In this document: positions 3,795 to 51,480 of the stretch, piece by piece
Numbering within the stretch: the first letter of the stretch is position 1
How the letters are laid out: every line of letters begins with the position of its first letter
Source: Macrocystis pyrifera
Taxonomy: Eukaryota; Sar; Phaeophyceae; Laminariales; Laminariaceae
Assembly (NCBI GenBank): GCA_031763025.1
Contig: JASSKH010000002.1
Span: 20,216,168-20,280,167 of the forward strand
Reading direction: 5' to 3'
Length of the DNA stretch: 64,000 nt
Notes under the pieces: model-generated
What the model saw: only the letters and a program-made list of their open reading frames with translations
Told to the model about the DNA's origin: nothing
The model's database searches: none
Translations under genes and position numbers: made by a program

Positions 3795-4400
3795 ACACTG
3801 GTAACAACGAGTGCGCCATCATCACATCACAGCAGCAGTAGTATACATAACGTGTTCGGGTGGGTCACGTAGCTCACGAACCTGCTGCCCGAAGAGAGGA
3901 CGAACCAAGCCTGTGGAGCCCATTATCAGCAGCGAGAACCGGCCTTGAAAGGGAAGCCCGTCGCGTCCGCGCGCATGCGATGCGGATGCATGCCGATGCT
4001 GCTCGTTTTTTTTTTGCGTTGCGGACATGACGGTGACCAATTTTGCTAGAAATCCATTTTCGTATCCTTTGTCCGAAATGTAAGGACCGCTTTAATACTA
4101 TTATGAATATCATGATTGTCCTTACGACTGCGGGCAAAGAGCGATAGTGCGGTATCACAGCAGTAGATGCCACGTTCGGGTCGGCCACGTGGATCAACGC
4201 GTACAGGGCGTCCGAGAAGCTCGGAGCTGGACCGGGCCGCTTGGGTGTGCGTGGGCTCCAGACATCTAAGACGTGCGCACACACTATTTTAGTATTGGCC
4301 GGGTAAACACTTTTTTCGGGGCTAAGCCCCTCTAAAGGTATCATGTGTATGCTGAAAATCGCCATTGAAGACAACAAAGCAAGACACAGCCCATTCTTCT
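3795..4400. repeat. Diverged local duplication
   Basis: A block near 3815-3875 (ATCACAGCAGCAGTAG, then ACGTGTTCGGGTGGGTCACGT) is repeated, diverged, near 4150-4200 (ATCACAGCAGTAGATGCC, then CGTTCGGGTCGGCCACGT). A minus-strand frame at 3874-4377 (167 codons) spans both halves. Its Arg-rich composition and lack of any motif make it unconvincing as a gene. A short AAGGACCGCTT motif near 4082 also occurs near 17290. Confidence 0.45.
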
Positions 4401-10480: not shown

Positions 10481-11414
10481 GACTAATCTACGCTCTGCTG
10501 CACGGCAGGTAATGGAGAAAGCATCTACGCACTCAGGATGTAAAGCGAAAGGAAACAGAAAAACTATGATTTCCCATTGTCCCCTAAAACCCAACAAACA
10601 GCGCTCTTCAGCAACAACGCCAAAAAGAGAAAGCCTGGTTGAAAATACAGTAATTTCGTCGGACACACAACGAAAGCCCCAGAAAAAATAAGCGGGCGTA
10701 GGCGGGCAGGTTACAACAACAACGGTCGTGTCATCCAATCTGATGAGTATTTGAGCATCGAACCAAGCAACCCTCACCCGTTAAACGAATGTGACGAATT
10801 TGAGACAAAACGTAAAAAAATCAAAAGGGAAATACACAACAAAACACACAAAATACTAATAGTGCTTCTATTGTGCGTTTTTGGGGACAAACCACTCTAA
10901 TTTCATATGGTTTGTCCCCAAAATAGGAATTCATGTGGTTTGTCCGCAACACGGGACTGCAGTAGCACTAAAATAGTTAATCTCCCCCGAAAACATAACA
11001 TGCAGAGACACCAAAGGAATAACACACCAGCCAGTGTCTGCTGCTGTACTAGTAAGCAGTAATGCACACCAGGCAGTGTTCTTTTTTATACTTCACAACA
11101 GTGAGGAGGCGGGGGGAAAACCTGATCTGTGACCGACCCCGGATCAAGGTTATATACGACGCCTCCCAGAAGGGAGCAAAAAAATTAGGGCGAATGTAAA
11201 TAATAGGTTGTGCGAAAGATCGGGAAAAACAAATGTTAAGCTGAAGTGCAGAATGCAGGGAGGGGATACAAAAAAATAATCTCTCACTAAGGTTTAAACA
11301 AAAAGACTCTTGTTTTACCTTGTATTCTATCTGGTATATATAGTCTACTGCTTCTGTGAAAATATGTTTTATTACGGGGGTCCATAGTAAATAGGACCTA
11401 GGGCATATACACAA
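10481..11414. other. No supported gene; isolated P-family palindrome at 10866-10965
   Basis: At 10866-10965 a GGGGACAAACCACTCTAATT block is followed by its inverse around GGTTTGTCCCC and the CGGGACTGCAG end. This is the signature palindrome of the P arrays at 13.9-16.3 and 62.45-64 kb. A Lys/Ser-rich frame at 10440-10691 has no recognisable domain. From about 11040 to 11414 no structure was found. Confidence 0.5.
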
Positions 11415-11800
11415 AAAACTATATAAATACAACTATTTTTACGATTTTTGCGGTCGGTGTCACTTGCTATAGCTCTTGGCAAACAGACCAACTGATAGAC
11501 AGCTCTTCGCAAACAGCCCTTTTGAAACAGCCGAACAGCCAAACAGCCAAACAACCTTTCTTCTTTCTTCGCAAACTGCCAACCAATAGACAGCTCTCGC
11601 CTAAAAGAGGCGTCTGGCCTTTGACGAACGGCATAGGTACAGCTGTCGGCGGCCAAGCTGCTGCTGTCGGTGGCGAACCTGCTGGTGCTGCAACCCCCGC
11701 CACTCCCTTCTCCACGCCCCCTAAGCTCACCTCCCCCTCGTCGAGAGGCGCGTGATCTTCGCCCTCTGGCAAGAGAGCGGCAACGACAAGGACCGACCTG

Positions 11801-11989
11801 GTGCCGGCTGTTGTTTGCGACCGGTGCACGGACCAGCACTTGGTCTGGGCAACCGACTGCGAGTTCTGTGCTCGCCCGATCAAGGAAGGGACTGTTTCGT
11901 ACTCCCTCGAGACTGCTGACAACCGACTGCGAGTTCTGTGCTCGCCCGACCAAGGAAGGGATTGTCTCGTACTCCCTCGAGTGCCTTAG
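11801..11989 (+). pseudogene. Cys-rich zinc-finger-like coding relic of element F (copy A)
   Basis: The frame reads VCDRCTDQHL, then CEFCARPIKEGTVSYSLE. Two CxxC pairs followed by I-x-x-G resemble small zinc-binding domains such as PARP-type fingers, but the second ligand pair is not clear. Copy B (45695-45944, minus) has about 35 extra residues between the first and last pairs, including an F-A-T-C-K-D-L-T-C segment, so copy A has an internal deletion. A 70-bp stretch (11871-11925) is also duplicated in tandem at 11921-11985. Comparison with copy B requires frame changes, so I call it a pseudogene. Zinc binding is inference. Confidence 0.5.
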
Positions 11990-11999
11990 GTCTTCCTTA

Positions 12000-12600
12000 T
12001 TTTCATATCGTTGCTATGCTGCTGCTGCTGCCAACGCTGCCAACGCTGCGGCGATTCGTTGCAGCTTCTGCTGCTGCTAATGTTGTAGCTTCTTCTGCTG
12101 CTGCTGCTGCTGCTAATGCTGCCGCAATATCCACTGATTGTTCGTATGTACTCGGATTACTGTTTTTCTTGGTCGTTTTTGTACCCAAATGGTTCTTTTG
12201 ATACGTGAAAAAATATTTTTGTCGTTTTGCTTCTGCATTTTGCGTACGTACTGCTTTTTCTCGTTTTTGGCTACTGCTTTTTCTCGTTTTTGGCTTGGTT
12301 TTTTTCATACGCTGCGGCGACCCATTGCTGCTTCTGCTGCTGCTGCTAATGTTGCTAATGCTGCCGCAACCACTGCTCGAAGCCGTTGCTGCTGCTGCTA
12401 ACACTGCTAATGCTGCCTCAATATCCACTGATTGTTCGTATGTATTCGGATTACTGTTTTTCTTGGTCGTTTTCGCACCCAAATGGTCGTTTTGGTACGT
12501 TAAAAAAATATTTTGGCCGTTTTCCTGCTGCGTTTTACGCACGTACTTGCTGCTTCCGCTGCTGCTGCCGTCGTATAGCAAGCGATTACGCACTGCTGTT
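12000..12600 (-). repeat. GCT-rich satellite inside element F copy A
   Basis: About two units of the satellite that is expanded in F copy B (43030-45140). On the minus strand a 196-codon frame stays open and encodes two imperfect repeats. Each has an aromatic/basic segment ending Y-Q-K-N-H-L-G-T-K-T-T-K-K and then N-P-S-T-Y-E-Q-S-V-D-I, followed by an alanine run encoded by GCA/GCT triplets. Because this strand opposes the F coding strand, the open frame may simply be a by-product of triplet composition. Confidence 0.6.
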
Positions 12601-12635
12601 GTGCCGCTGTAAAGCAGTACAAATAATGAACTCTG

Positions 12636-12660
12636 CCCCCCCCCCCCCCCCCCCCCCCCC
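12636..12660. repeat. C25 homopolymer, left part of a poly-C tract split by element E
   Basis: 25 consecutive C residues. After the E insertion a further 11 C (12932-12942) lead into TCTTCCCCCTCCCCCGCC. In F copy B the same flanks are joined by one uninterrupted 48-base G tract (42633-42680). Confidence 0.95.
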
Positions 12661-12931
12661 TGTTGGAAGTGGCTACACCGGAAATTAAACTAACTCATTG
12701 AAGCTGTCATCCATATGCAAGTCGCCTCACAAGCGGTTCTTAGTAGGATGCAGCTCACCCTTCATGCGACTCGCCGGACACCTCACGGCGCTTCGCGCTT
12801 GGTGCAAGCAATGTCTGCCTGGTCGGTGAAAACCCGACATGCTCCGTCCCGGCATTGTGGGGATGCGAGGGTCTATGGTCATACGACTACGGCCATGCAT
12901 GAGATCGAGTACATCTCTCCTATCAGGTGCA
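12661..12931 (+). mobile_element. Element E, 5'-truncated copy inserted in element F
   Basis: Nearly identical to the last 270 bp of the full-length E copies (39331-39847, 46354-46872, and inverted 41241-41760), starting at GGAAGTGGCTACACCGG. It lacks the first half of E and is bordered by C-runs on both sides. F copy B provides the empty site. 5' truncation with a constant 3' end is typical of target-primed retroposition (established for LINEs/SINEs). The 3' end is followed by C residues instead of A. No protein is evident; several GC-rich hairpins are present, for example GTCGG-TGAAAAC-CCGAC. Confidence 0.85.
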
Positions 12932-12984
12932 CCCCCCCCCCCTCTTCCCCCTCCCCCGCCATTCCCTGCACGCCACTCCCGCCC

Positions 12985-13511
12985 CGCGCACCCTATCTAC
13001 GTTTACTTCGACCAGGTCGGTGGCAAGTGCTACAAGTGCCGCCTGACGGATTCCACCATCACAGACGGAGACATCATCATCAAGCGCAAGAAGACTCCCT
13101 TCCATTTCGCCTGCCCCAGGGCTTCGCGGAATTCCGAAGCAGTACGCCACGCAGATTATCGCCATCCAGGACGAACGAAAGGCGACAAATTGTTTCCCAC
13201 ATTTCCCAAAATCACGATTATTTCTTCCTACACATACCCAACGGGTTCAACAGCGGACACATCCACATTCTGGGCCTCCCGCCTCGTTACTACAGCAGCC
13301 TGGAAGACTATTTACATATCATGTCTCATCCAAACTCTATGCTGGCTACATCGAAATCGCGGCCGCCCAGCAACTATACAACATTTCCATAACCGTTGTC
13401 GTTGCCGGCACTGCTGCTTTCCCTCCTGTCCCAAACCTTCCTTTAAACAACAGCCTGTATGTTGTATATCATCCACATGCCATGCACTACTCAACTCTCT
13501 CCCTGCACTGA
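12985..13511 (+). pseudogene. OTU-like cysteine protease relic of element F (copy A)
   Basis: Conceptual reading with one frame change near 13330 gives, in order: a segment with CYKCRL and HFAC; a helix-like stretch ERRQIVSHISQNHDYF; SSLEDYLHIMSHPN; then YAGYIEIAAAQQLYN-ISITVVV (IEI at 13350-13358); and finally LYVVYHPHAMHYSTL before TGATGA. The order I-V-x-H-I..., [WY]-x-G-x-I-E-I-x-A-x-x-x-x-Y-x-x-x-I, and Y-H-x-x-x-x-H-Y is the characteristic C-terminal half of OTU-family proteases, with the catalytic His at 13485-13487. A catalytic Asp-Gly-x-Cys is not clearly present; HFAC followed by RALAEAI in copy B is the nearest candidate. The frameshift makes this copy inactive. OTU domains are known as cargo in some eukaryotic transposons and LINEs. 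Confidence 0.55.
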
Positions 13512-13624
13512 TGAAATATGTTATTCTTATTATTAGACGAATGTCATTCTTACTCTTCTTGCGTCACCCAATCTTACGTTTCACATTACATTCATAAATA
13601 AACGCGATTATTACATCCTTCACC

Positions 13625-13744
13625 GTTTCTTACACAAATACATTTAGTTTGCTTGGCTTTGGGCTATTACCCCAATTGCAGTTAATATTGCAATTGGGGT
13701 AATAGCCCAAAGCCAACCAGTCTAAATGTATTTGCACAAGAAAC
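13625..13744. repeat. Terminal hairpin of element F copy A, 56-bp arms
   Basis: Left arm 13625-13680 and right arm 13689-13744 are near-perfect inverse copies (GGCTTTGGGCTATTACCCC against GGGGTAATAGCCCAAAGCC) with an 8-base loop. Equivalent hairpins occur at 41795-41923 (copy B) and about 34223-34352 (copy C). Arm changes are partly compensated between copies. Confidence 0.9.
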
Positions 13745-13914
13745 GACGGAATACCCACTCCGAAGGAAAGCCTTGTACTTCCCTATTTTTACCAACAATA
13801 TTTGGTCCTAGTTACTATGGTCCCCCGTAATATTAATATTTAGCCGTTTGGCGATGTCGCAAGAAATGAAAAGAACGTCATCATTGTGCACAACACGATC
13901 TCAGCGAAATCGAT

Positions 13915-24485: not shown

Positions 24486-25317
24486 TTATTGCCGCCCCCC
24501 AAAAGCAAGAGAAGTGCTGTGATGCTGGACGGGGAAATATCGAAGTATGTTGATACCTGGTATTTTACAAGGAGTTGCACAGGGATGTACGTTGTTACCT
24601 AACCTATTCAAGATATATATTAACGACCCGATATAGCAGTCGAGGCAGCAAGGCAGGAAGTCACGGTAGGGCAAGATACGGTGTCGGGATTGATGTTTGC
24701 GGATGACTTCGTGGGGATATCAGAGACACCCGAAGGATTGGAGAACAAATAGAGAATGCGCTAGGATACAGTAGGAGATGGAGGGTGACAGCGAACGTCA
24801 AGAAATGCGCAGTGGTTGTTTGCAACGAAGATAAGGTAAACCCGGTAAATGTCAGTTGGAAGTGGGGAGAAGATGAATTGCCGATCGTAGATCAGTATAC
24901 ATACCTTGGCGTAGAGATCTCAACAGATTGCTCTTGTGATACACATATAGCAAAAGTAATAGGAAAGGGTAAGGCACAAGAAGGCGAGATGGATGCGATC
25001 CTAACAGACTCGCACCTTGACACCAGGATTAAGAGATGTATTCTGATGAATGTGATAGTACCAAAGCTAGAATATCCAGGAAAAGTATGGGAAGGGAACG
25101 CGAAACTCGTAAAACAGTTGGAAACAGCACAAATGACAGCATCTAAAAAAATCCTAGGATGCTCAAGTACGACTAGTAATACAGTATCAAGAGCAGAACT
25201 GGGAATGCACCAACTCGAGACAAATAGAGACATGAGAAAGTTGAACTGGCAATATATAGTAAGGATCATGCCAAAAAAGAGGTTGCCAGCCAAAGTCGAC
25301 ATTATTCTAGAGCAGGG
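24486..25317 (+). pseudogene. Non-LTR (LINE-type) reverse transcriptase relic
   Basis: The first half needs frame changes and contains stops. It reads KYVDILQGVAQGCTLLPN, LFKIYINDPI and then SGLMFADDFVGISETPEGLE. FADD (24696-24707) is the [YF]-x-D-D catalytic motif C of reverse transcriptases, and G-V-x-Q-G-C-x-L-x-P is motif B. From 24785 a clean 185-codon frame continues with the thumb/C-terminal region: VTANVKKCAVVVC, VDQYTYLGVEIS, DTRIKRCILMNVIVPKLEYP and WQYIVRIMPKKRLPA. Y-L-G-V is the usual motif after the palm in LINE RTs. The 5' part (endonuclease, RT motifs 1-4) is missing and the 3' end is cut by R4 at about 25318. Inactive. Confidence 0.85.
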
Positions 25318-26305
25318 CAAGGGTTGCCCTGCTGTTCCCTAGGTGTTACCATATAATAAAAAACGGTTGGACAGAGGTATGAAAATTCTCTCGCGACGTA
25401 GATACTTGCCACGTAGAATATTACTTGTTCGAAGATGCTGCAGTTGCGGCTATTTCAAGGCAAAAAACCAAAACATAACTTCACAGTCGCATAGCGCAGA
25501 TTGCGATGACCTCGACGTGTCACGAGCACACCCATACCAAATAAAAGGCCGCAGTAAAATCCAAGATGACAAAAGGTATACAAGTAGACTTTTCGCCGAT
25601 GATCGTTACGTACACGCACCCCGTGAACAACACTCTGTCGACCGAACAGTTACCATAAATGTAGCTGCGCAGAAGTCGAAAGGCTAGACGCGCCGTGCAA
25701 CATTTCTGCAAAATGCGTTCTAGCAAAAAGACGGAAACAAGAAGGCAGGCAGTCTGAATCGAGAAGCAATATCACACAAAAAATCAAAACGTTTCAACAC
25801 ACATGTGATGAACACGTGAGATGCTGAAGGCGGGGGTGCGTCGGACTCGAGTCGGCAGGGCACACCTGCGCTCCCCACGTCGTAGTGGCCAGGACTTCGA
25901 TAAGGCCGAGGCACGATCGGTCCATATCTAGTTGCCTCGATTATCTCCGAGCGTTCTTGGCTTTTTGCGCGCTCATGGTAGCTAGCACTACCGTATGCTG
26001 TCGTTTATGCCTGGGGAACAACCAAGGTCCTAGACTTTCGAAGGTAGACATACATACGCTGGAAACCATGCAGAAGACGCAGTCGCCGCAGCGCCCGCAG
26101 TCGCCGCAGGGGGCGGAAACGGCCCAGAGCTCCCGTACGCCGCAAAAAACAAGTCCGGCCCAGACCCGCAAAGGGAAACCGAAGGGCAAACACAAATCTG
26201 TGGACCACAGAGAGGGTCCGATCGAGACCCCGTCCGCTAAGCGCCAGCACGTCGAGCAGATGGGACTACAGAGAGGGTCCGATCGAGACCCCGGTCGCTA
26301 AGCAG
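25318..26305 (-). mobile_element. R4 element, copy 2
   Basis: Begins exactly where the RT reading frame is interrupted (GAGCAGGGCAAGGGTTGCCC) and follows R4 copy 1 closely to the C-terminal part of the USP-like relic (minus: HGFQRMYVYLRK to ESDAPPP, about 25830-26080). The protease core is replaced by a short (CAGTCGCCG)-type repeat and unrelated sequence. A plus-strand frame at 25885-26301 through this junction yields a Gln/Ser/Pro/Lys-rich tail and is probably fortuitous. Junction position suggests R4 landed in the LINE relic. Confidence 0.65.
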
Positions 26306-39240: not shown

Positions 39241-39330
39241 CATCAATATCCGATATCGACACCGAGTATCGATATCGATACCAATATCGAAATAACGGAC
39301 CCCACGTCCGCCCCATTATATATATTATAT

Positions 39331-39847
39331 GTGGGTTGGGTTGGCGTCGGTTGGCAACGACACTGTAAAACATGCCGCTCACTACGTGAGCTAGACATCC
39401 AGGGTATCGTTTTTATTTACTTATTTATCTTTTGGCGGTCGCCCACAGCTGGTTGTCAAGTTAGACCATTTGTGCGAAGTAAAGAACCTTTACTCTGCAC
39501 AAGGGAATTGATCGTATCACGTAGTGTTCAAGGTAAGGCACCCAAGAGGCAGTTACATAGTACTCCCATTGCTGTCTCTGGAAGTGGCTACATCGGAAAT
39601 TAAACTAACTCATTGAGGCTGTCATCCATATGCAAGTCCGCCTCACAAGCGGTTCTTAGTAGGATGCAGCTCACCCTTCATGCGACTCGCCGGACACCTC
39701 ACGGCGCTTCGCGCTTGGTGCAAGCAATGTCTGCCTGGTCGGTGAAAACCCGACACACTCCGTCCCGGCATTGTAGGGATGCGAGGGTCTATGGTCATAC
39801 GACTACGGCCATGCATGAGATCGAGTACATCTCTCGTACCGAGTACA
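39331..39847 (+). mobile_element. Element E, full-length copy
   Basis: Aligns over its whole length with 46354-46872 and with the reverse complement of 41241-41760. It begins GTGGGTTGGGTTGGCGTCGG after a TA-rich run, includes CATGCCGCTCACTACGTGAG, GGCGGTCGCCCACAGCTGG, TTCAAGGTAAGGCACCCAAG and CACGGCGCTTCGCG, and ends GATCGAGTACAT...GAGTACA followed by CCCC. The 3' 270 bp are also found truncated at 12661. Predicted frames are not conserved by selection in any obvious way. Non-autonomous retroposon is my best guess; no pol III boxes are certain. Confidence 0.85.
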
Positions 39848-40576
39848 CCCCACCTCCAGGTTCATCTTGACCTTGCAGTAGATGTATCCCTGGTAAATTG
39901 GCTCCTCCTTGAACGTAACCGTCTTGCCCACTTGCTTTGGCACCTATTCAAATTGGTAGCAGTACATGGAACGCATGTTACATAGTTATGTTACTAGGAG
40001 TAAATCAACAGCTAAAAACTTTAACACCTACCAGATATGTACCAACCATACACATATTAATGCAGTACTGACTAGGGTTTAGAGTCGGCCCCTCCACCCC
40101 GATGGCGAAGGGAACATGTGTTATAAAAATGGACCGGGAAAACGAAATGTAGTTTATCGTGAGTTTATTGAGGATGGGAGGTTAACTTTTGGGTGAGGCC
40201 ACCTTTTTCACGATGGGCCAATTCCGAAAAAGAAAGCTGGATATAAGTAGCGTATTATATGTTCTAAAACTAAGGGTACTGGAACGCGTGACCAATAAAA
40301 ATATCGTTGTGTTCAGTTCTGCCAGACCGGTCGAAAAGGGTTGAGACACTTCCTGTGATTGTGTGTTCTGACGGTTGTCGAATGGAAACGAACTGCGATA
40401 TATACTCTACGTGCACGAATATTATTCAAAAAGTACGCAAGACAACGTAACGACAAGAGAAGGGGTACCAAAACAAAAAAAAAAACTGGAACCGCACCCC
40501 TATTTCCGAGACCCGGTTAAGCAAGGGTTACTTTGTTGTATATCCTTCGAAATGTCACACTATTATTCTCGGTAAC
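39848..40576. other. No supported gene
   Basis: Unclassified, moderately AT-rich. No partner copies or domains seen. Confidence 0.4.
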
Positions 40577-40730
40577 GTCGGGGGTTGGCTTAACGGGCGT
40601 GGTACGAGAACCACGACACCGGCCGCTACTTCTCGTTCCCTATCATACTGCCAGTACCCGAAAATCCCCTCCCCAGCCGACCGGCCGGGGCCCTGACACA
40701 TGCGGTTTCGGACCATCAACTCCCAAATAG
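40577..40730 (-). repeat. Fragment of the recombinase-element end
   Basis: GGTTGGCTTAACGGGCGTGGT and CCCCAGCCGACCGGCCGGGGC match 46314-46332 and 46875-46897. At the latter locus element E (46354-46872) lies between these two blocks. So this is a second, E-free copy of the terminal region of the tyrosine recombinase element. Confidence 0.7.
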
Positions 40731-41170: not shown

Positions 41171-41207
41171 TCCTTCGAATTGTCTGGCTATTATTATCTG
41201 CGACGTG

Positions 41208-41210
<3 letters not shown>

Positions 41211-41240
<30 letters not shown>
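41211..41240. repeat. G30 homopolymer at the 3' end of an inverted E copy
   Basis: Thirty consecutive G residues directly abut TGTACTCGAT, the inverted 3' end of element E. Confidence 0.95.
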
Positions 41241-41241
<1 letters not shown>

Positions 41242-41760
41242 GTACTCGATAAGAGAGATGTACTCGATCTCATGCATGGCCGTAGTCGTATGACCATAGA
41301 CTCTCGCATCCCTACAATGCCGGGACGGAGCATGTCGGGTTTTCACCGACCAGGCAGACATTGCTTGCACCAAGCGCGAAGCGCCGTGAGGTGTCCGGCG
41401 AGTCGCATGAAGGGTGAGCTGCATCCTACTAAGAACCGCTTGTGAGGCGGACTTGCATATGGATGACAGCTTCAATGAGTTAGTTTAATTTCCGGTGTGG
41501 CCACTTCCAGAGACAGCAATGGAAGTACTATGTAACTGCCTCTTGGGTGCCTTACCTTGAAAACTGCGTGATACGATCAATTCCCTTGTGCAGAGTAAAG
41601 GCTCTTTACTTCGCACAAATGATCTAACTAGACGACCAGCTGTGGGCGACCGCCAACAAAAAAAAAAAAACGGTGCCCTGGATATCTAGCTCACGTAGTG
41701 AGCGGCACATTTTACAGTGTCGTTGCCAACCGACGCCAACCCAACTCATCTATAATATAT
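41241..41760 (-). mobile_element. Element E, full-length copy, inverted
   Basis: Reverse-complement partner of 39331-39847 and 46354-46872. Its 3' end faces the G30 tract (C30 in element orientation). Its 5' end (CCAACCCAAC, then a TATAATATATAT run) abuts the terminal hairpin end of F copy B at 41764. Confidence 0.88.
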
Positions 41761-42079
41761 ATACAAGGCTTTCCTTCGGAGTGGGTATTCCGTCGTTTCT
41801 TGTGCAAATACATTTGGTTTGGTTGGCTTTGGGCTATGACGCCAATTGTTGCAATTGGCGTAACAATTGGCGTCATAGCCCAAAGCTAACCAAACTAAAT
41901 GCATTTTTATTTGTGTAAGAAACGGTGAAGGATGTGATTAATAATAATCGCGTTTATTTCTAAATGTAATAATGTGAAACGAAAGATCGGGTGACGCAAG
42001 AGTAACAAGAATGACATTCGTGTAACGATATAGCGCAATAGTAAGAATAACATATTTCATCAGTGCGGGGAGAGTGGAG

Positions 42080-42590
42080 TAGTGCATGGCATGTGGATGA
42101 TATACAACATACAGGCTGTTCTTTAAACGAGGGTTCGGGACAGGAGGGAAAGCAGCAGTGCCGGCAACGACAAAACGGTTATGGAAATGTTGTATAATTG
42201 CTGGGCGACCGCGATTTCGATGTAGCCAGCAAAGGAGTTTGGATGAGACATGATACGTAAATAGTCTTGCAGGCTGCTGTAGTAACACGAGACGGGAGGC
42301 CCAGAATGTGGATCTGTTCGCTGTTGAACCCGTTGGATATGTGTAGCAAGAAATAATCGTGATTTTGGGAAATGTGGTAAACAATTTGTTGTCTTTCGTT
42401 CGTCCTGGATGGCGACACTTTTGCTTGGCGTATTGCTTCCGCTAAGCCCTGGAGCAGGCGAAATGGGAGGGAGTCTTCTTGCGCTTGATGATGTCTCCGT
42501 CTTTGATGGTGGAGTCCGTCAGGCGGCAGTTGTAGCTCTTGCCACAGACCTGGTCGAAGTAAACACAGATAGGGTGCGCGGGGGGTCGGG
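42080..42590 (-). pseudogene. OTU-like cysteine protease relic of element F (copy B)
   Basis: Aligns with 12985-13511. The minus strand reads SYNCRLTDSTIKDGDI, HFACSRALAEAI (over a stop), TNERQQIVYHISQNHDYFLL, then after a one-base shift SSLQDYLRIMSHPNSFAGYI and EIAVAQQLYNISIT, a further shift, and YVVYHPHAMHYSTLPALMKY. Here MSHPN runs straight into FAGYIEI, which shows that the frame break at that point in copy A is secondary. Shifts elsewhere make copy B inactive too. The independent damage in A and B implies both descend from an intact OTU-coding ancestor. Confidence 0.55.
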
Positions 42591-42630
42591 AGTGGGGAGT
42601 GGCGTGCAGGGAATGGCGGGGGAGGGGGAA

Positions 42631-42632
<2 letters not shown>

Positions 42633-42680
<48 letters not shown>
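42633..42680. repeat. G48 homopolymer
   Basis: Forty-eight uninterrupted G residues (C48 on the F coding strand) separate AGGGGGAAGA from AGAGTTCATTATTAG. It is the unoccupied counterpart of the E insertion site in copy A. Confidence 0.95.
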
Positions 42681-42681
<1 letters not shown>

Positions 42682-43029
42682 GAGTTCATTATTAGTACTG
42701 CTCGACAGCGGCACAACAGCAGTACGTAATCGCTTGCTAAACGACGACAGCAGCGGCAGAAGCAGCAAGTACGTGCGTAATACGCAGCAGGAAAACGGCC
42801 AAAATCTTTTTTTAACGTACCAAAACTACCCTTTGGGTGCATGCAGAAACGATCAAGAAAAAACAGCAATCCGAATTCATACGAACAATCATTGGATCTT
42901 GAGGCAGCATTAGCAGTATTAGCAGCAGCAGCAGCAACTGCTTCGAGCAGTGGTTGCGGCAGCATTAGCAACACTAGTAGCAGCAGAAGCAGCAATGGAT
43001 TGCCGCAGCGTTGGCAGCAGTAGCAGCAT

Positions 43030-45140
43030 AGCAACGATATGAAAAAAAAAGAAGAAAAAAGTATGTACCCTGGTATGCCGCGACCGCAAAAACTACGGAA
43101 TTTCATTGACGAAACAAAAATATGTACACACAAATGACCAGCATGATGTACGGCAACAACACAGCAGCAACACCACAGCAGCGGCGGAGCAGCGGTATGA
43201 AAAGAACGAAGCCCAAAACGAGAAAAAGCGGTACGTACGCAAAATGCAGCAGCAAAATGACCAACATGTTTTTTTCAGGTACCAAAACGACCATTTAGGT
43301 ACAAAAACGATCAAGAAAGACAATAATCCGAGTACATACGAAGATTCAGTGAATATTGCGGCAGCATTAGCATTAGCAGCAGCAGCAGCAGCAAAAACAG
43401 CAACGGATCGCCGCAACGTTGGCTGCAGCAGCAGCAGCATAGCAACGATATGAAACGAAGGAAGAAAAAAACTATGTACCCTGGACTGCCGCAATCGCAA
43501 AACCTACGGAATTTCATTGACGATACAGAAATATGTACACACACAAGTGTAATACACACACACAAATCACGTCCAGCATGATGTACGGCAACAACGCAGC
43601 AGCACCACAAAAAAAATCATTTGACGACACAGAAATATGTACACACGCACAAGTGTAATAGACATACAAATCATGTCCAGCATGATGTACGGCAACAACG
43701 CAGCAGCGCCACAAAACGACCAAGAAACACAATTATCCGAGTACATACGAACCTTCAGTGAACATTGCGGCAGCACTAGCAGCAGCAGCAGCAGCAGAAG
43801 CAGCAACGATATGAAAAGAAGGAAGAAACAGAGTATGTACCCCGAGACCTTCCGAAAAGTATTTTTGGTACCTCACTATAGCCCCACCCCCGCATGCTGT
43901 ACGGCAACAACGCAGCAGCAGCATCGCAACAATACGAAAAGAACCAAGCTAAATACGAGAAAAAGTAGTACGTACGCAAAATGCAGGAGAAAAACGACCA
44001 AATATTTTTTTACGTATCAAAAGAACCATTTGGGTACAAAAACGGCCAATAAAAACAATAATCCGCGTTGGCAGCAGCAGCAGCAGCATAGCAACGCATG
44101 CATATGAAAATAAGGAAGAAAAAAAACCATGCACCCTGGTACTGGTATGCCGCAATCGCAAAACCTACGGAATTTCATTGACGATACAGAAATATGTACA
44201 CACACAAGTGCAGCATGATGTACGGCAACAACGCAGCAGCACCACAGCAGCAGCAGCAGCATAGCAACGATATGAAAAGAACCAAGCCAAAAACGAAAAA
44301 AAGCAGTACGTACGCAAAATGCAGGAGCAAAACGACCAAGCAATATATTTCTTCACGTATCAAAAGAACTATTTGGGTACAAAAACGACCAAGAGAAACA
44401 ATAATCCGAGTACATACGAACATTCATTGGATATTGAGGCAGCATTAGCAGCAGCAGCAGCAGCAACGGCTTCGAGCAGTGGTTGCGGCAGCATTAGCAG
44501 CAGAAGAAGCAATGGATCGCCGCAGCGTTAGCAGCAGCAGCAGCATAGCAACGATTTTAAAAGAAGAAAAAAAAGTATGTACCTTGGTATGCCGCAATAA
44601 TAACAAAACCTACGGAAATTCATTGACGATACAAAACACACACAAGTGCAATGTACACACATAAATCACGTCCAGCATGATGTACAGATGTCGACGGGTA
44701 GAAAGAACGGTTTCACGTAAAGAACAGACACACACACGGCAACAACGCAGCAGCACCACAGCAGCAGCAGCATAGCAACGACATGAAAAGAACGAAGCCA
44801 AAAAAAAAAAGAAGCAGTATGTGCATGCACGCAAAAAATGCAGCAGCAAAACGACTAAAATATTTTTTTCAGGTACCAAAACCACCATTTATTTGGGTAC
44901 AAAAATGGCCAAGAAAAACAGTAATCCGAGTACATACGAACATTCAGTGGATATTGCGGCAGCATTAGCAGCAGCAGCAGCAGCAGAAGCAGCTACAGCA
45001 TCAGCAGCAGCAGAAGCAGCTACAGCATCAGCAGCAGCAGAAGCTGGAACGAATCGCCGCAGCGTTGGCAGCAGCAGCATAGCAACGATATGAAAATAAG
45101 AAAGAAAAAAAGCATGTACCCTGGTATGCCGCCATCGCAA
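43030..45140 (+). repeat. Expanded AGC-rich satellite of element F (about five units of 410-650 bp)
   Basis: Unit landmarks: TATGCCGCAATCGCAAAA with CCTACGGAATTTCATTGACG (near 43075, 43485, 44145, 44590 and 45125); AAATATGTACACACACAAGTG; CCAGCATGATGTACGGCAAC; GCAGCAGCA runs; CATAGCAACGATATGAAAAG; TACCAAAACGACCATTTGGG; and CAATAATCCGAGTACATACG. In most units one plus-strand frame encodes a basic stretch, then H-L-G-T-K-T-x-K-K, then N-P-S-T-Y-E-x-S, then an alanine run. Phases differ between units, so there is no single long protein. Unit length varies mainly through AGC tracts. Confidence 0.8.
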
Positions 45141-45279
45141 AACCTACGGAATTTTTTTGACGATCCAAAAATATTTACACTTCCAGCATGATGCACGGCA
45201 ACAACGCAGCAGCACTACAGCAGCAGCAAGTATACAGGAGCAGCAGGTGCACAGGAGCAGCACTCATGGCGTGGCGCTG

Positions 45280-45325
<46 letters not shown>
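45280..45325 (+). repeat. (CAG)n microsatellite, about 15 uninterrupted triplets
   Basis: The longest pure CAG run in the window, flanked by TGGCGCTGA and CCGAAAACGAGC. Absent from F copy A at the matching position. Confidence 0.9.
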
Positions 45326-45327
<2 letters not shown>

Positions 45328-45694
45328 GAAAACGAGCAAAAGGAGTACGTAGGGTCACCAAAAAAACATGTACAAACAGAAATAGTGTGCACCGAAAATG
45401 CACCACAGCAGTAGCTCACGTCGTTCGGTGCAGCGGTGACGGCGATAGCTGAATCCTCCGTTCCTTCGTTCACGTTCCGCAAACAGTTGTGCATGTGCGC
45501 GTTCGCGTGCACTGTGTAAGAGGAGCCGACGCAACCGACGAAGGGGAAAGAACGAGCATCTGGATGAGTCCAAAAAATAAACGCTTTGAGGTAGGTTTGT
45601 ATGCAAAGAGGCAATCGAAAACCCCCAAAAAAACGTACCGGCAACAGACAGCATGCAACAACAGACCCAAGACACTCACCACCGTCAGCAGTCT

Positions 45695-45944
45695 CGAGGG
45701 AGTACGATACAGTCCCTTCCTTGATCGGGCGAGCACAGAACTCGCAGTCGGTTGCCCAGTACAGGATGATCCCGCCACCAGCGCACGTGAGATCCTTGCA
45801 GGTGGCGAAGGCCACGTTTTTTCCACCAGGCGCGGAGTTCTTGACCAAGTGACCAAAGTGCTGCTCCGTGCACCGGCCGCAACAACAGCCGGCACCAGGT
45901 CGGTCTTTGTCGTTGCCGCTCTCTTGCCAGAGGGCGAGGACCAC
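45695..45944 (-). pseudogene. Cys-rich zinc-finger-like relic of element F (copy B)
   Basis: Minus-strand frame: CCCGRCTEQHFGHLVKN, FATCKDLTCAGGGIILYW, then TDCEFCARPIKEGTVSYSLE. Three Cys pairs (CxxC, CxxxxC, CxxC) are spread over about 60 residues. Copy A lacks the middle pair. The leading segment DLVPAVVC in copy A aligns only after a frame change, so neither copy is intact. Family assignment is uncertain. Confidence 0.45.
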
Positions 45945-46353
45945 GCGCCTCTCGACGAAGGGGAGGTGAGCTTAGGGGGCGTGGAGAAGGGAGAGGCGGG
46001 GGTTGCAGCACCAGCAGGTTCGCCACTGACAGCAGCAGCTTGGCCGCCGACAGCTGCACCTATCTATGCCGTTCGTCGAAGGCGAGACGCCTCTTTTAGG
46101 CGCCGTGCGAAGAGCTGTCTATTCGTTGGCAGTTTGCGAAGAAGAAAGAAGAAAGGTTGTTTGGCTGTTTGGCTGTTCGGCTGTTTCAAAGAAGAAGGGC
46201 TGTTTGCGAAGAGCTGTCTATCAGTTGGTCTGTTCGCCAAGAGCTAGCAAGTGACACCGACCCCAAAAATCGTAATAATAGTTGTATTTACATAATAGAG
46301 GGAGGGGGGGGCTTAACTGGCGTGGTCTACCAGCACCCGAGAGCGCCCCCCTT

Positions 46354-46872
46354 ATATATGGGTTGGGTTGGCGTCGGTTGGCAACGACACTGTAAAACAT
46401 GCCGCTCATTACGTGAGCTAGACATCCAGAGTACCGTTTTTTTTTTTGTTTTTTTTTGGCGGTCGCCCACAGCTGGTTGTCAAGGTAGATCATTTGTGCG
46501 AAGTAAAGAACCTTTACTCTGCACAAGGGAATTGATCGTATCACGTAGTGTTCAAGGTAAGGCACCCAAGAGGCAGTTACATAGTGCTCCCATTGCTGTC
46601 TCTGGAAGTGGCCACACCGGAAATTAAACTAACTCATTGAAGCTGTCATCCATATGCAAGTCCGCCTCACAAGCGGTTCTTAGTAGGATGCAGCTCACCC
46701 TTCATGCGACTCGCCGGACACCTCACGGCGCTTCGCGCTTGGTGCAAGCAATGTCTGCCTGGTCGGTGAAAACCCGACACACTCCGTCCCGGCATTGTAG
46801 GGATGCGAGGGTCCACGGTCATACGACTACGGCCATGCATGAGATCGAGTACATCTCTCCTATCGAGTACAG
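46354..46872 (+). mobile_element. Element E, full-length copy inside the recombinase element end
   Basis: Full-length E between GAGAGCGCCCCCC (46340-46352) and ACCCCCCCAGCCGAC (46873-46887). The locus at 40577-40730 contains the two flanks without E. The target again is a C-run. Internal sequence differs from 39331-39847 by only scattered substitutions. Confidence 0.88.
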
Positions 46873-46984
46873 ACCCCCCCAGCCGACTGGCCGGGGCCCT
46901 AACACACGCAGTCTCGGACGACCAAGACCCAGCGGAAGAAAACCAATGACGTTCCCCAGCTCCGAAGTCGCGTCGGTCCTTTGG

Positions 46985-48792: not shown

Positions 48793-49325
48793 TGGGTACT
48801 AACCATGCACCGGCATGCACGAGGGTACTATCGATGCACCGGCGTGGACGAGAATACTATCCATGCACCGGATGAACGAGGGTACTACCCATGCACCGGC
48901 ATGGACGAGGGTATTGTCCATGCACCGGAAAAGACGAGATTAGTATCCATGCACCGGCATGGACGAGGGTACGATCCATGCACCCGCATGGACGAGGATG
49001 CTGTCCATGCCCCGACATACACGAGGGTACTATCCATGCACCGGCATGGACGAGGGTACTATCCATGTACCGGCGTGGACGAGAATACTATCCATGCACC
49101 GGATGAACGAGGGTACTACCCATGCACCGGCATGGACGAGGGTATTGTCCATGCACCGGAAAAGACGAGATTAGTATCCATGCACCGGCATGGACGAGGG
49201 TACGATCCATGCACCCGCATGGACGAGGATGCTGTCCATGCCCCGACATACACGAGGGTACTATCCATGCACCGGCATGGACGAGGGTACTATCCATGCA
49301 CTGGCATAGACGAGGGTACTATACC
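48793..49325 (+). repeat. 29-bp satellite, array 1, with 231-bp higher-order repeat
   Basis: The monomer is CATGCACCGG CATGGACGAG GGTACTATC (29 bp), about 18 copies. A set of eight monomers repeats exactly with period 231 bp (for example GTGGACGAGAATACT at 48844 and 49075). Each monomer contains CCATGC-ACCG-GCATGG, a 6-bp hairpin with a 4-base loop. No stop triplet occurs in any plus-strand phase, so frames such as 48805-49398 are open by composition. Confidence 0.95.
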
Positions 49326-50364: not shown

Positions 50365-51480
50365 CAACATGCATCGGCATGGACGACGGTACGATCCATA
50401 CACCGGCATGACACGAGGATACGATCCATGAATTGGCATGGACGGGGGTACTATCCATGCATCGGCAAGGACAAGGGTGCTACCCATGGCCCGGCATGGA
50501 CGAGGTACTACCCATGAACCTCCATGGTCGAGGGTACTATCCACGTACCGGCATGGACGAGGGTACTATCCATGCACCGGCATCGACGAGGACATAGTCC
50601 ATACATCGACATGGATGAGGGTACTGTCGATGCACCGGCAGGGCCAAGGATACTATCCGTGCACCGGCATGGACGAGGGTACTATCGATGCACCAGCATG
50701 GACGAGGGCACTATCCATGCATCGGCATAGACGAGGATACTGTCCATGTACCGGCATGCACAACGGTACGGACGAGCGTACTGTCCATGCACCGGCGTGG
50801 ACGAGGGTACGATCCATGCACCGGCATGGACGACGATACTATCCGTACACCGGTATGGACGATGGTACTATCCACAAACCAGGCAAGGACGGGGGTACTA
50901 TCCATACACCGGCATGGACGAGGGTGGGTACTATCCATAAAGTGGCGTGGACGAAAGAGGGTACTATTCATGCCTTCCAAATAGTCGCATTGGCGTTGTG
51001 TTTTATTTGTAATAATTAAGTTTCTTATTTATATGCATCAGCATATATTCGAATCATTATTATCTATGCACCGGCCTGGACGAGAGTGCGAACTATCCGC
51101 TCATTGCCCCGAACGAGTGCGCATCCCATTTATATGCACCGGCAGTCTTCTACCACTTCTACCCATGAACCGGCCTGGATGAAAGTGGGTACTGTCCATG
51201 CATTGGAGTGGACGAAGGCACGTGCAATCCATGCATTGGGCTGGACGAGAGTACGCATCCTATTTATACACCCGTGCACCGGCCTGGACGAGAGTGGGTA
51301 CTATCAATGCATTGGCGTGGACGAAGCCGCGTACATTCCATGCATGGGCCTGGACGACAGTACACATCGGCGTTGTTTATTGCCGCCTTTCATTTTGATT
51401 TTTATACCTATATATACGCTTTTTCATTACTTTCGTTTTACATGCACCGGCATATACTCCAATCATCAACGCCCTCTAGC
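50365..51480 (+). repeat. 29-bp satellite, arrays 2 and 3 (diverged)
   Basis: 50365-50985 holds about 20 diverged monomers of the same 29-bp unit. 51060-51375 has a longer variant, CCATGCACCGGCCTGGACGA followed by GAGTGGGTACTAT, of 31-33 bp. A last TGCACCGGCATATAC lies at 51442. Divergence increases outward from array 1. Predicted proteins (MHRHGRGYYPCTG-like) are repeat artefacts. Confidence 0.9.

Follow-up and report, generated by a model that had tools for sequence, protein, structure and literature searches.

The stretch of Macrocystis pyrifera DNA analysed here, 64 kb in length and referred to below as the window, contains four copies of a repeat of ~520 bp, which we call E, three on the forward strand and one on the reverse. 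By blastn, the copies in the window are 94 to 96% identical to E4, which was taken as the reference. The features on which the argument draws are as follows, with positions in the window and the basis of each assignment in parentheses.

11420-12635, forward strand: left part of F copy A, the host of E1, itself outside the E/LINE system (sequence comparison)
12636-12660, forward strand: C25, the C-tract of F copy A to the left of E1, which splits that tract (sequence)
12661-12931, forward strand: E1, an E copy lacking about 250 nt at its 5' end (95.7% identical to E4 over 278 nt by blastn)
12932-12942, forward strand: C11 immediately 3' of E1 (sequence)
12943-13777, forward strand: right part of F copy A (sequence comparison)
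24707-25339, forward strand: open reading frame of a degenerate partner-LINE copy, without the LINE 3' end (82% to L037 over 133 aa; 83 to 87% to 11 LINE loci)
39311-39315, forward strand: CCCCA, the 5' copy of a possible E2 target duplication, with its 3' copy at 39848-39852 (5 bp, weak alone)
39316-39847, forward strand: E2, a full-length E with a TA-rich start longer than that of E4 (sequence comparison)
40577-40730, forward strand: E-free paralogous site, with CCCCTCCCC at the E4 position and CCCCC on the other strand at the E3/F position (sequence)
41207-41240, reverse strand: 3' junction of E3, reading C30 TCCC in the sense direction (sequence)
41241-41762, reverse strand: E3, a full-length E (blastn)
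46300-46311, reverse strand: CCCCCCCCTCCC in the sense direction, beyond F copy B, matching 12 letters at 41207-41218 (putative target duplication)
46346-46351, forward strand: C6 preceding E4 (sequence)
46352-46871, forward strand: E4, the reference E copy (sequence, blastn)
46872-46880, forward strand: GA and C7 following E4 (sequence)

Within the window, E ends in GAGTACA, with the variant GTGCA in E1, and on the sense strand the 3' ends are followed by C11 in E1, CCCCA in E2, C30 in E3 and GA-C7 in E4. The original prediction that all four 3' ends run into C residues (11, 30, 7 and 4) therefore held on the sense strand, with the qualifications that the C4 after the copy at 39316 occurs alone within the possible 5-bp CCCCA duplication and that GA precedes the C's of E4. 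The 5'-truncated E1 was likewise correctly described as splitting a C-tract, since it lies between C25 and C11 whereas the paralogous F copy B carries an unbroken 48-mer C-tract at 42633-42680. E4 is situated inside the C-tract of a repeat, the occupied locus reading CCAGCACCCGAGAGCGCCCCCC[E]gaCCCCCCCAGCCG and the E-free paralogue CCAGTACCCGAAAATCCCCTCCCCAGCCG; its proposed position between two C-runs was borne out by the C6 before it and the C7 after it, except that GA intervenes before the latter. A block consisting of E3 and F copy B sits ~35 bp away, in the G-tract of the same repeat. The 5' side of E3 itself is taken by F, and the outer flanks of the block (46300-46311 and 41207-41218) read GGGAGGGGGGGG on the forward strand. 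In the E3 sense, the paralogue at the E3/F site (around 40577-40612) reads CCAACCCCCG, versus CCCCCCCCTCCC in both outer flanks, and from their sequence these flanks look like a target duplication. If letters were independent, 0.065 C- or G-runs of at least 10 nt would be expected in the window. There are six, comprising two E 3' junctions, two runs that are part of F's own tract, and two (15853 and 63677) in other repeats.

F copy A lies inside an element bounded by 29-bp terminal inverted repeats, 93% complementary, at 11370-11398 and 13804-13832, into which F was apparently inserted at a TA; visual inspection showed short elements with similar ends in L023 and L033 as well. An inverted repeat (13624-13745) close to the right end of F copy A has 57-nt arms, 89% complementary and 8 nt apart, and its counterpart in F copy B was located at 41806-41906 by self-comparison. 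F's own C48 tract, at 42633-42680, is placed between a CAG/CTG-rich part and a zinc-finger-like frame, recognized by eye, that had no Pfam match. F copy B (41763-46299) adjoins the TA-rich 5' end of E3, an F-like end adjoins the 5' end of another E in L092 (by eye), and F may prefer TA repeats such as the start of E. Because of the arrangement in L092, insertion of F into the TA-rich start of E is a simpler account than one in which F copy B and E3 were retroposed as a single chimera. Among the other repeats of the window, three start near GCAGGGCAAGGGTTG (20256, 25304 and 57847), one of them joined to the LINE fragment 24707-25339, and they may represent a further element whose 5' end is fixed. 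A 29-bp unit (GGGTACTATCCATGCACCGGCATGGACGA) is arrayed at 48794-49322 and 50368-50971, the first array having a 231-bp higher-order period.

Across the 537-Mb assembly, a 30-mer internal to E occurred at 4108 sites with at most one mismatch, and the same pattern read backward, used as a control, occurred at none. We sampled the junctions at 40 loci around the best DNA matches, two of which were copies in the window, together with the window itself, giving 64 rows. Seventeen of these were dropped because the 3' end was incomplete or identity was below 88%, and 47 with a complete young-type 3' end were kept; E1 is absent from the 47 because it ends in the variant GTGCA and so did not count as having a complete 3' end. 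On the 3' side, a run of C6 or longer began within 3 nt in 43/47 copies, versus 0.64% of 20000 random positions drawn from the same sequences, and a run of C4 or longer in 45/47, versus 2.4%. On the 5' side, C6 or longer was present at most 50 nt before the match to E4 in 41/47 copies, versus 3.9% of random positions. The C's are on the sense strand of E: G6 or longer was found within 50 nt in none of the 47 copies on the 3' side and in one on the 5' side. At the 3' end, L038 continues with CACACACCCCC and L014b with CCACATGG; six of the 47 had no C6 on the 5' side, and two of those (L008 and L013) had not even C4 there. Many of the older copies that were dropped likewise run into C's. As the first loci had been chosen by similarity, we took a second set of 20 copies by the internal pattern, spread through 100 listed places, and found C4 or longer after the 3' end in 18, the remaining two reading CCCGC29 and CACACACACACCC. 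Thus, in these samples, E copies did not for the most part lie outside C/G tracts, nor were C-runs absent from their 3' junctions.

Several E loci hold a second repeat, ending ...AAAGGGATGCGTGGTCAATGGTCAAATGACTAAGGCAAGCAACAAATGAGTAC and then C's, with a reverse transcriptase (RT) coded upstream of that end (RVT_1, 2.3e-31). The best PDB matches of the RT were R2 and LINE-1 ORF2p, at 3e-19 to 6e-19, and by this predicted RT we class the partner element as a LINE. Two frames of L076 matched PF03372 (Exo_endo_phos) at 1.8e-4 and 1.3e-4, with bit scores of 21.8 and 22.2 that fall below the cut-off of 24.5, and the C-terminal piece from L073 gave no such match; the LINE also contains the candidate motifs GDFNSRIG and GTTDHCLI, which we take to be endonuclease (EN)-like. 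An APE-like LINE is weakly supported by its sequence.

The 3' ends of this LINE behave like those of E. A protein search gave 150 scored matches out of 4366 first-look candidates. Among 12 loci selected from these by their RT, 11 contained the LINE 3' end and all 11 ran into C's, the weakest being L044 with GC4TC6; the sole locus without the end was the window's own copy. Among 20 further places from the list of that search, taken as 301-base stretches, the end was found in 19 (L061 being the one without it), and all 19 ran into C's. An exact 22-mer from the LINE end had 3856 occurrences. Counting the forward strand, where each site appears once in the listed places, 1539/1936 ends had CCCCC within 2 nt and 397/1936 did not; the reverse-strand figure of 3332 was inflated by the variable gap, which lets a site appear up to three times, and was left out. 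The 5' end of the LINE copy fell inside the stretch in 5 of the 11 loci, at five different LINE positions; LINE copies, like those of E, are often 5'-truncated. We recognized target duplications by eye at L042, L047 and L051; at L044 there was no target duplication by eye and no C-run before the 5' end.

These counts bear on the possibility that the homopolymers were inflated or created by sequencing and assembly. The giant kelp assembly was made from PacBio reads with Canu/Racon, as described in PMC10498591, and the exact lengths of long runs are doubtful. We nevertheless give almost no credence to an artefact as the explanation of the junctions, as C is the same letter after 43/47 E copies and 1539/1936 forward LINE ends, and on one strand only.

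The 3' terminus of the LINE is ...TGAGTAC-(G)-C-run and that of E is ...GAGTACA-C-run, with ~54 nt up to GAGTAC related between the two; their alignment scored 54, versus at most 33 in 5000 mononucleotide shuffles. The recommended search for a LINE sharing the E 3' end thus yielded an abundant LINE with a related 3' end in the same genome. In the LINE, the stop codon TGA lies 4 to 5 nt before the C-run (...ACAAATGAGTAC-G-Cn). In young E copies the stretch related to the LINE is followed by its final 18 nt repeated in tandem, and, judged from its sequence, the young 3' end has the appearance of a tandem duplication of those 18 nt. In older E-like copies (L014, L026, L031, L035, L089 and L092) the terminal 18 nt are missing and the sequence stops at the first GAGTACA, where C's likewise follow.

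E is about 520 bp long, is dispersed over at least 4108 sites and has at its 3' end a stretch related to a LINE from its own genome; in size, copy number and 3' end it is SINE-like. The open frame of E had no Pfam match, and a comparison of E with tRNA and Rfam gave no match above threshold (three were at chance level). E contains T-runs near position 85-105, and such T-runs would stop Pol III. Because of the lack of a tRNA or Rfam match and the internal T-runs, which speak against Pol III, we use the term SINE-like and do not assign E to the classical SINEs. At the 3' end, no RNA stem beyond chance was found in four copies (z from -0.48 to +1.14). Searches of non-eukaryotic collections gave no relatives of E, whether with exact 22- to 25-nt patterns in viral or bacterial/archaeal contigs, with a translated query against viral contigs, or with blastn against phages and plasmids; nor did the window RT open reading frame have relatives in viral contigs.

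We also considered E as an internally deleted LINE of the RIME/ingi kind, as positions 311-489 of E are 85% identical to a stretch before the LINE in L073. No such stretch is present upstream in L076, L079, L084 and L086, where the LINE continues without it, so that the stretch in L073 is more likely an older E-like copy lying before a 5'-truncated LINE. With the failure of this test, E did not prove to be part of a larger element.

The E match began at position 1-5 in 31/47 copies and at positions from 14 to 468 in the other 16, whose 5' part is missing. A fairly constant start of this kind, together with C-tracts that could recombine, would be compatible with E having been moved or copied at the DNA level, as a MITE, as a Helitron-like element or by recombination between C-tracts. 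We disfavour this reading and regard it as highly improbable, since no terminal inverted repeat was seen by eye at the ends of E (self-comparison of E4 gave internal ones only), the 16 shorter copies lose 5' sequence while keeping a constant 3' end, and that 3' end is related to a LINE. It is instead very probable, on the comparisons described above, that E is SINE-like and non-autonomous, a retroposon that the abundant LINE of the same genome mobilises through their related 3' end, the two forming a LINE/SINE-like pair that inserts by target-primed reverse transcription (TPRT) at C/G homopolymers. In this the original proposal of retroposition at C/G homopolymers with 5' truncation gains support from the junction counts, the 16/47 truncated copies and the LINE with a related 3' end.

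Whether the C's at the 3' junction belong to the target or to the element can be judged in part from target duplications. We scored a duplication where six or more letters following the 3' C-run were found again, with one mismatch allowed, behind a C-run in the 5' flank. Such duplications read past the C-run in 11/45 E copies, versus a mean of 1.1 and a maximum of 5 in 2000 random re-pairings of flanks. The clearer ones are those of L009 (CCCCCTCTCCACAAACCC), L005, L030 and L002 and, in the second set, L106 (CCCCCCCTCCGTCAGTC). Weaker cases among the 11 are L003, L007 and L037, which match in C-rich letters only, and L032, which lies within an E array where tandem duplication could give the same picture. 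No duplication of six or more letters past the C-run was found in 34/45 copies. Because the duplications read past it, the C-run must have existed before insertion and was first of all the target.

These observations raise the question of whether the C-run is all target, with no C-tail added and with the longer 3' runs produced by later expansion of the homopolymer. C-runs on both sides of the element and duplications that extend past the C-run agree with such pure target specificity, as do the absence of a tail between the end of E2 and CCCCA and the 3' C-runs of L002, L005, L011b, L024 and L106, which are shorter than the 5' ones and argue against an obligatory C-tail. Three LINE copies examined by eye point the other way: in L042, G-C13-A stands between the LINE end and the duplication, before C14ACTAC; in L047, the target is CCCCCGTCGAC, yet the LINE is followed by three G-Cn units (GC7GC5GC13), before GTCGAC, after a C5 target; and in L051, C26 contrasts with CCC, before TCACC. 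Later expansion does not readily explain the G and A letters in the added runs, and we think it rather unlikely that target specificity is the whole explanation. From these junction sequences, a C-tail appears to be gained in some insertions but is not demonstrable in all. The description of E as having a C-run instead of an A-tail accordingly needs to be revised, in that the C's are mainly those of the target as it was before insertion, found on either side of the element and within the duplications; what stands is a gain of C's in some copies (L042, L047, L051, E3 and L007).

With C on the sense strand, the 3' end of a bottom-strand G-run could prime on the C's at the 3' end of the RNA. In the mechanism that we propose for TPRT in this pair, the LINE protein would bind the 3' end common to the LINE and E RNAs, and that protein, or a break, would expose a 3' OH in the bottom-strand G-run. 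An RNA with a C-rich 3' end, arising by read-through into the C-run downstream of the source copy, would then pair with the G-run. Reverse transcription would proceed toward the RNA 5' end, its frequent early stop giving 5' truncation, and C-on-G slippage, or the copying of C's from the RNA, would lengthen the run. The insertion would thereby keep or enlarge the C-run, providing a target for the next one.

The same orientation, in which a G-rich 3' end is the primer, would also be seen if insertion were independent of an endonuclease, with reverse transcription of C-ended RNAs primed by the G-rich 3' ends that breaks leave in G-tracts (G-quadruplex sites) and the nicking specificity of the LINE playing no part. 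C/G homopolymers as targets and the weak EN match are compatible with this idea. Duplications of about 15 to 20 bp containing non-C sequence, found in some copies, fit a staggered enzyme cut, and GDFNSRIG and GTTDHCLI, presumably EN-like, are present in the LINE; we consider endonuclease-independent insertion improbable.

E was found directly in the C-run of a LINE at L056 and L060 (2 of 19 stretches) and also at L033 and L037, and chains of the form E-C-E were found at L035, L032 and L014. Such nesting in the C-runs of earlier insertions of E or the LINE implies that an insertion can leave a target for the next. An extension of the TPRT scheme is that a single nucleotide serves as the landing code: the G homopolymer would be the primer and the C-run of the RNA the guide, the insertion would keep or lengthen the run, and copies would seed nested arrays and help to build long C/G homopolymers, with RNA-DNA tail pairing rather than protein recognition picking the target. 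We put this forward tentatively, as a possibility a little short of evenly balanced.

Parts of this system have precedents. Waldo, Kibi and Dong are reportedly among the microsatellite-specific non-LTR retrotransposons. Togen, at (TG)n, and some HERO families are further examples (PMC4640811), and the kelp LINE resembles them in that its insertions are also concentrated in one simple repeat. It differs from them in its target, a C/G homopolymer, mono-C not being among the targets named in the passages of PMC4640811 cited here; in that an abundant non-autonomous family has the same target; and in its apparent type, HERO and Togen being of the restriction-like type and the kelp LINE weakly APE-like by sequence. 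LINE/SINE pairs with a common 3' tail are thought to use stringent recognition of the 3' end, and the 3' repeats given for them in the part of PMC3747384 used here are (A)n, (ATT)n, (CTTT)n, (T)n, (TTG)n and (TTGATG)n, with no (C)n among them. E and the kelp LINE are like these pairs in having about 54 related nt at the 3' end, but the related stretch in the kelp LINE is in the coding end, with the stop codon 4 to 5 nt from the C-run. In Zepp of Chlorella, new LINE copies insert into the tails of those already present; nesting is common to both systems, but the tails of Zepp are poly(A), in clusters at chromosome ends, and the kelp runs are of C. SINE tails made by slippage, reportedly described by Tu et al. 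in 2004, are similar in the variable length of the 3' repeat and in short units such as the GC7 GC5 GC13 of L047, and differ in that the kelp repeat is C-based and combined with a C-tract target. A limited search of the open-access literature, a weak negative, met no C-tailed or C-targeting elements. We tentatively suggest that a C/G homopolymer as both target and tail is apparently new, microsatellite-targeting LINEs and LINE/SINE tail pairs being already known.

If the proposed pairing is correct, the homopolymer would join the known targets and tails of non-LTR retrotransposons, with a likely autonomous partner supplied. The thousands of element ends at C-tracts, some with non-C duplications, would amount to a natural experiment on tail-target pairing in TPRT, and a LINE that primes on G-runs could interest builders of RNA-templated insertion tools. 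The giant kelp genome is 57.6% repetitive (PMC10498591). Insertion of this kind is a possible cause of the long C/G homopolymers in that genome, where homopolymers may often mark the ends of elements.
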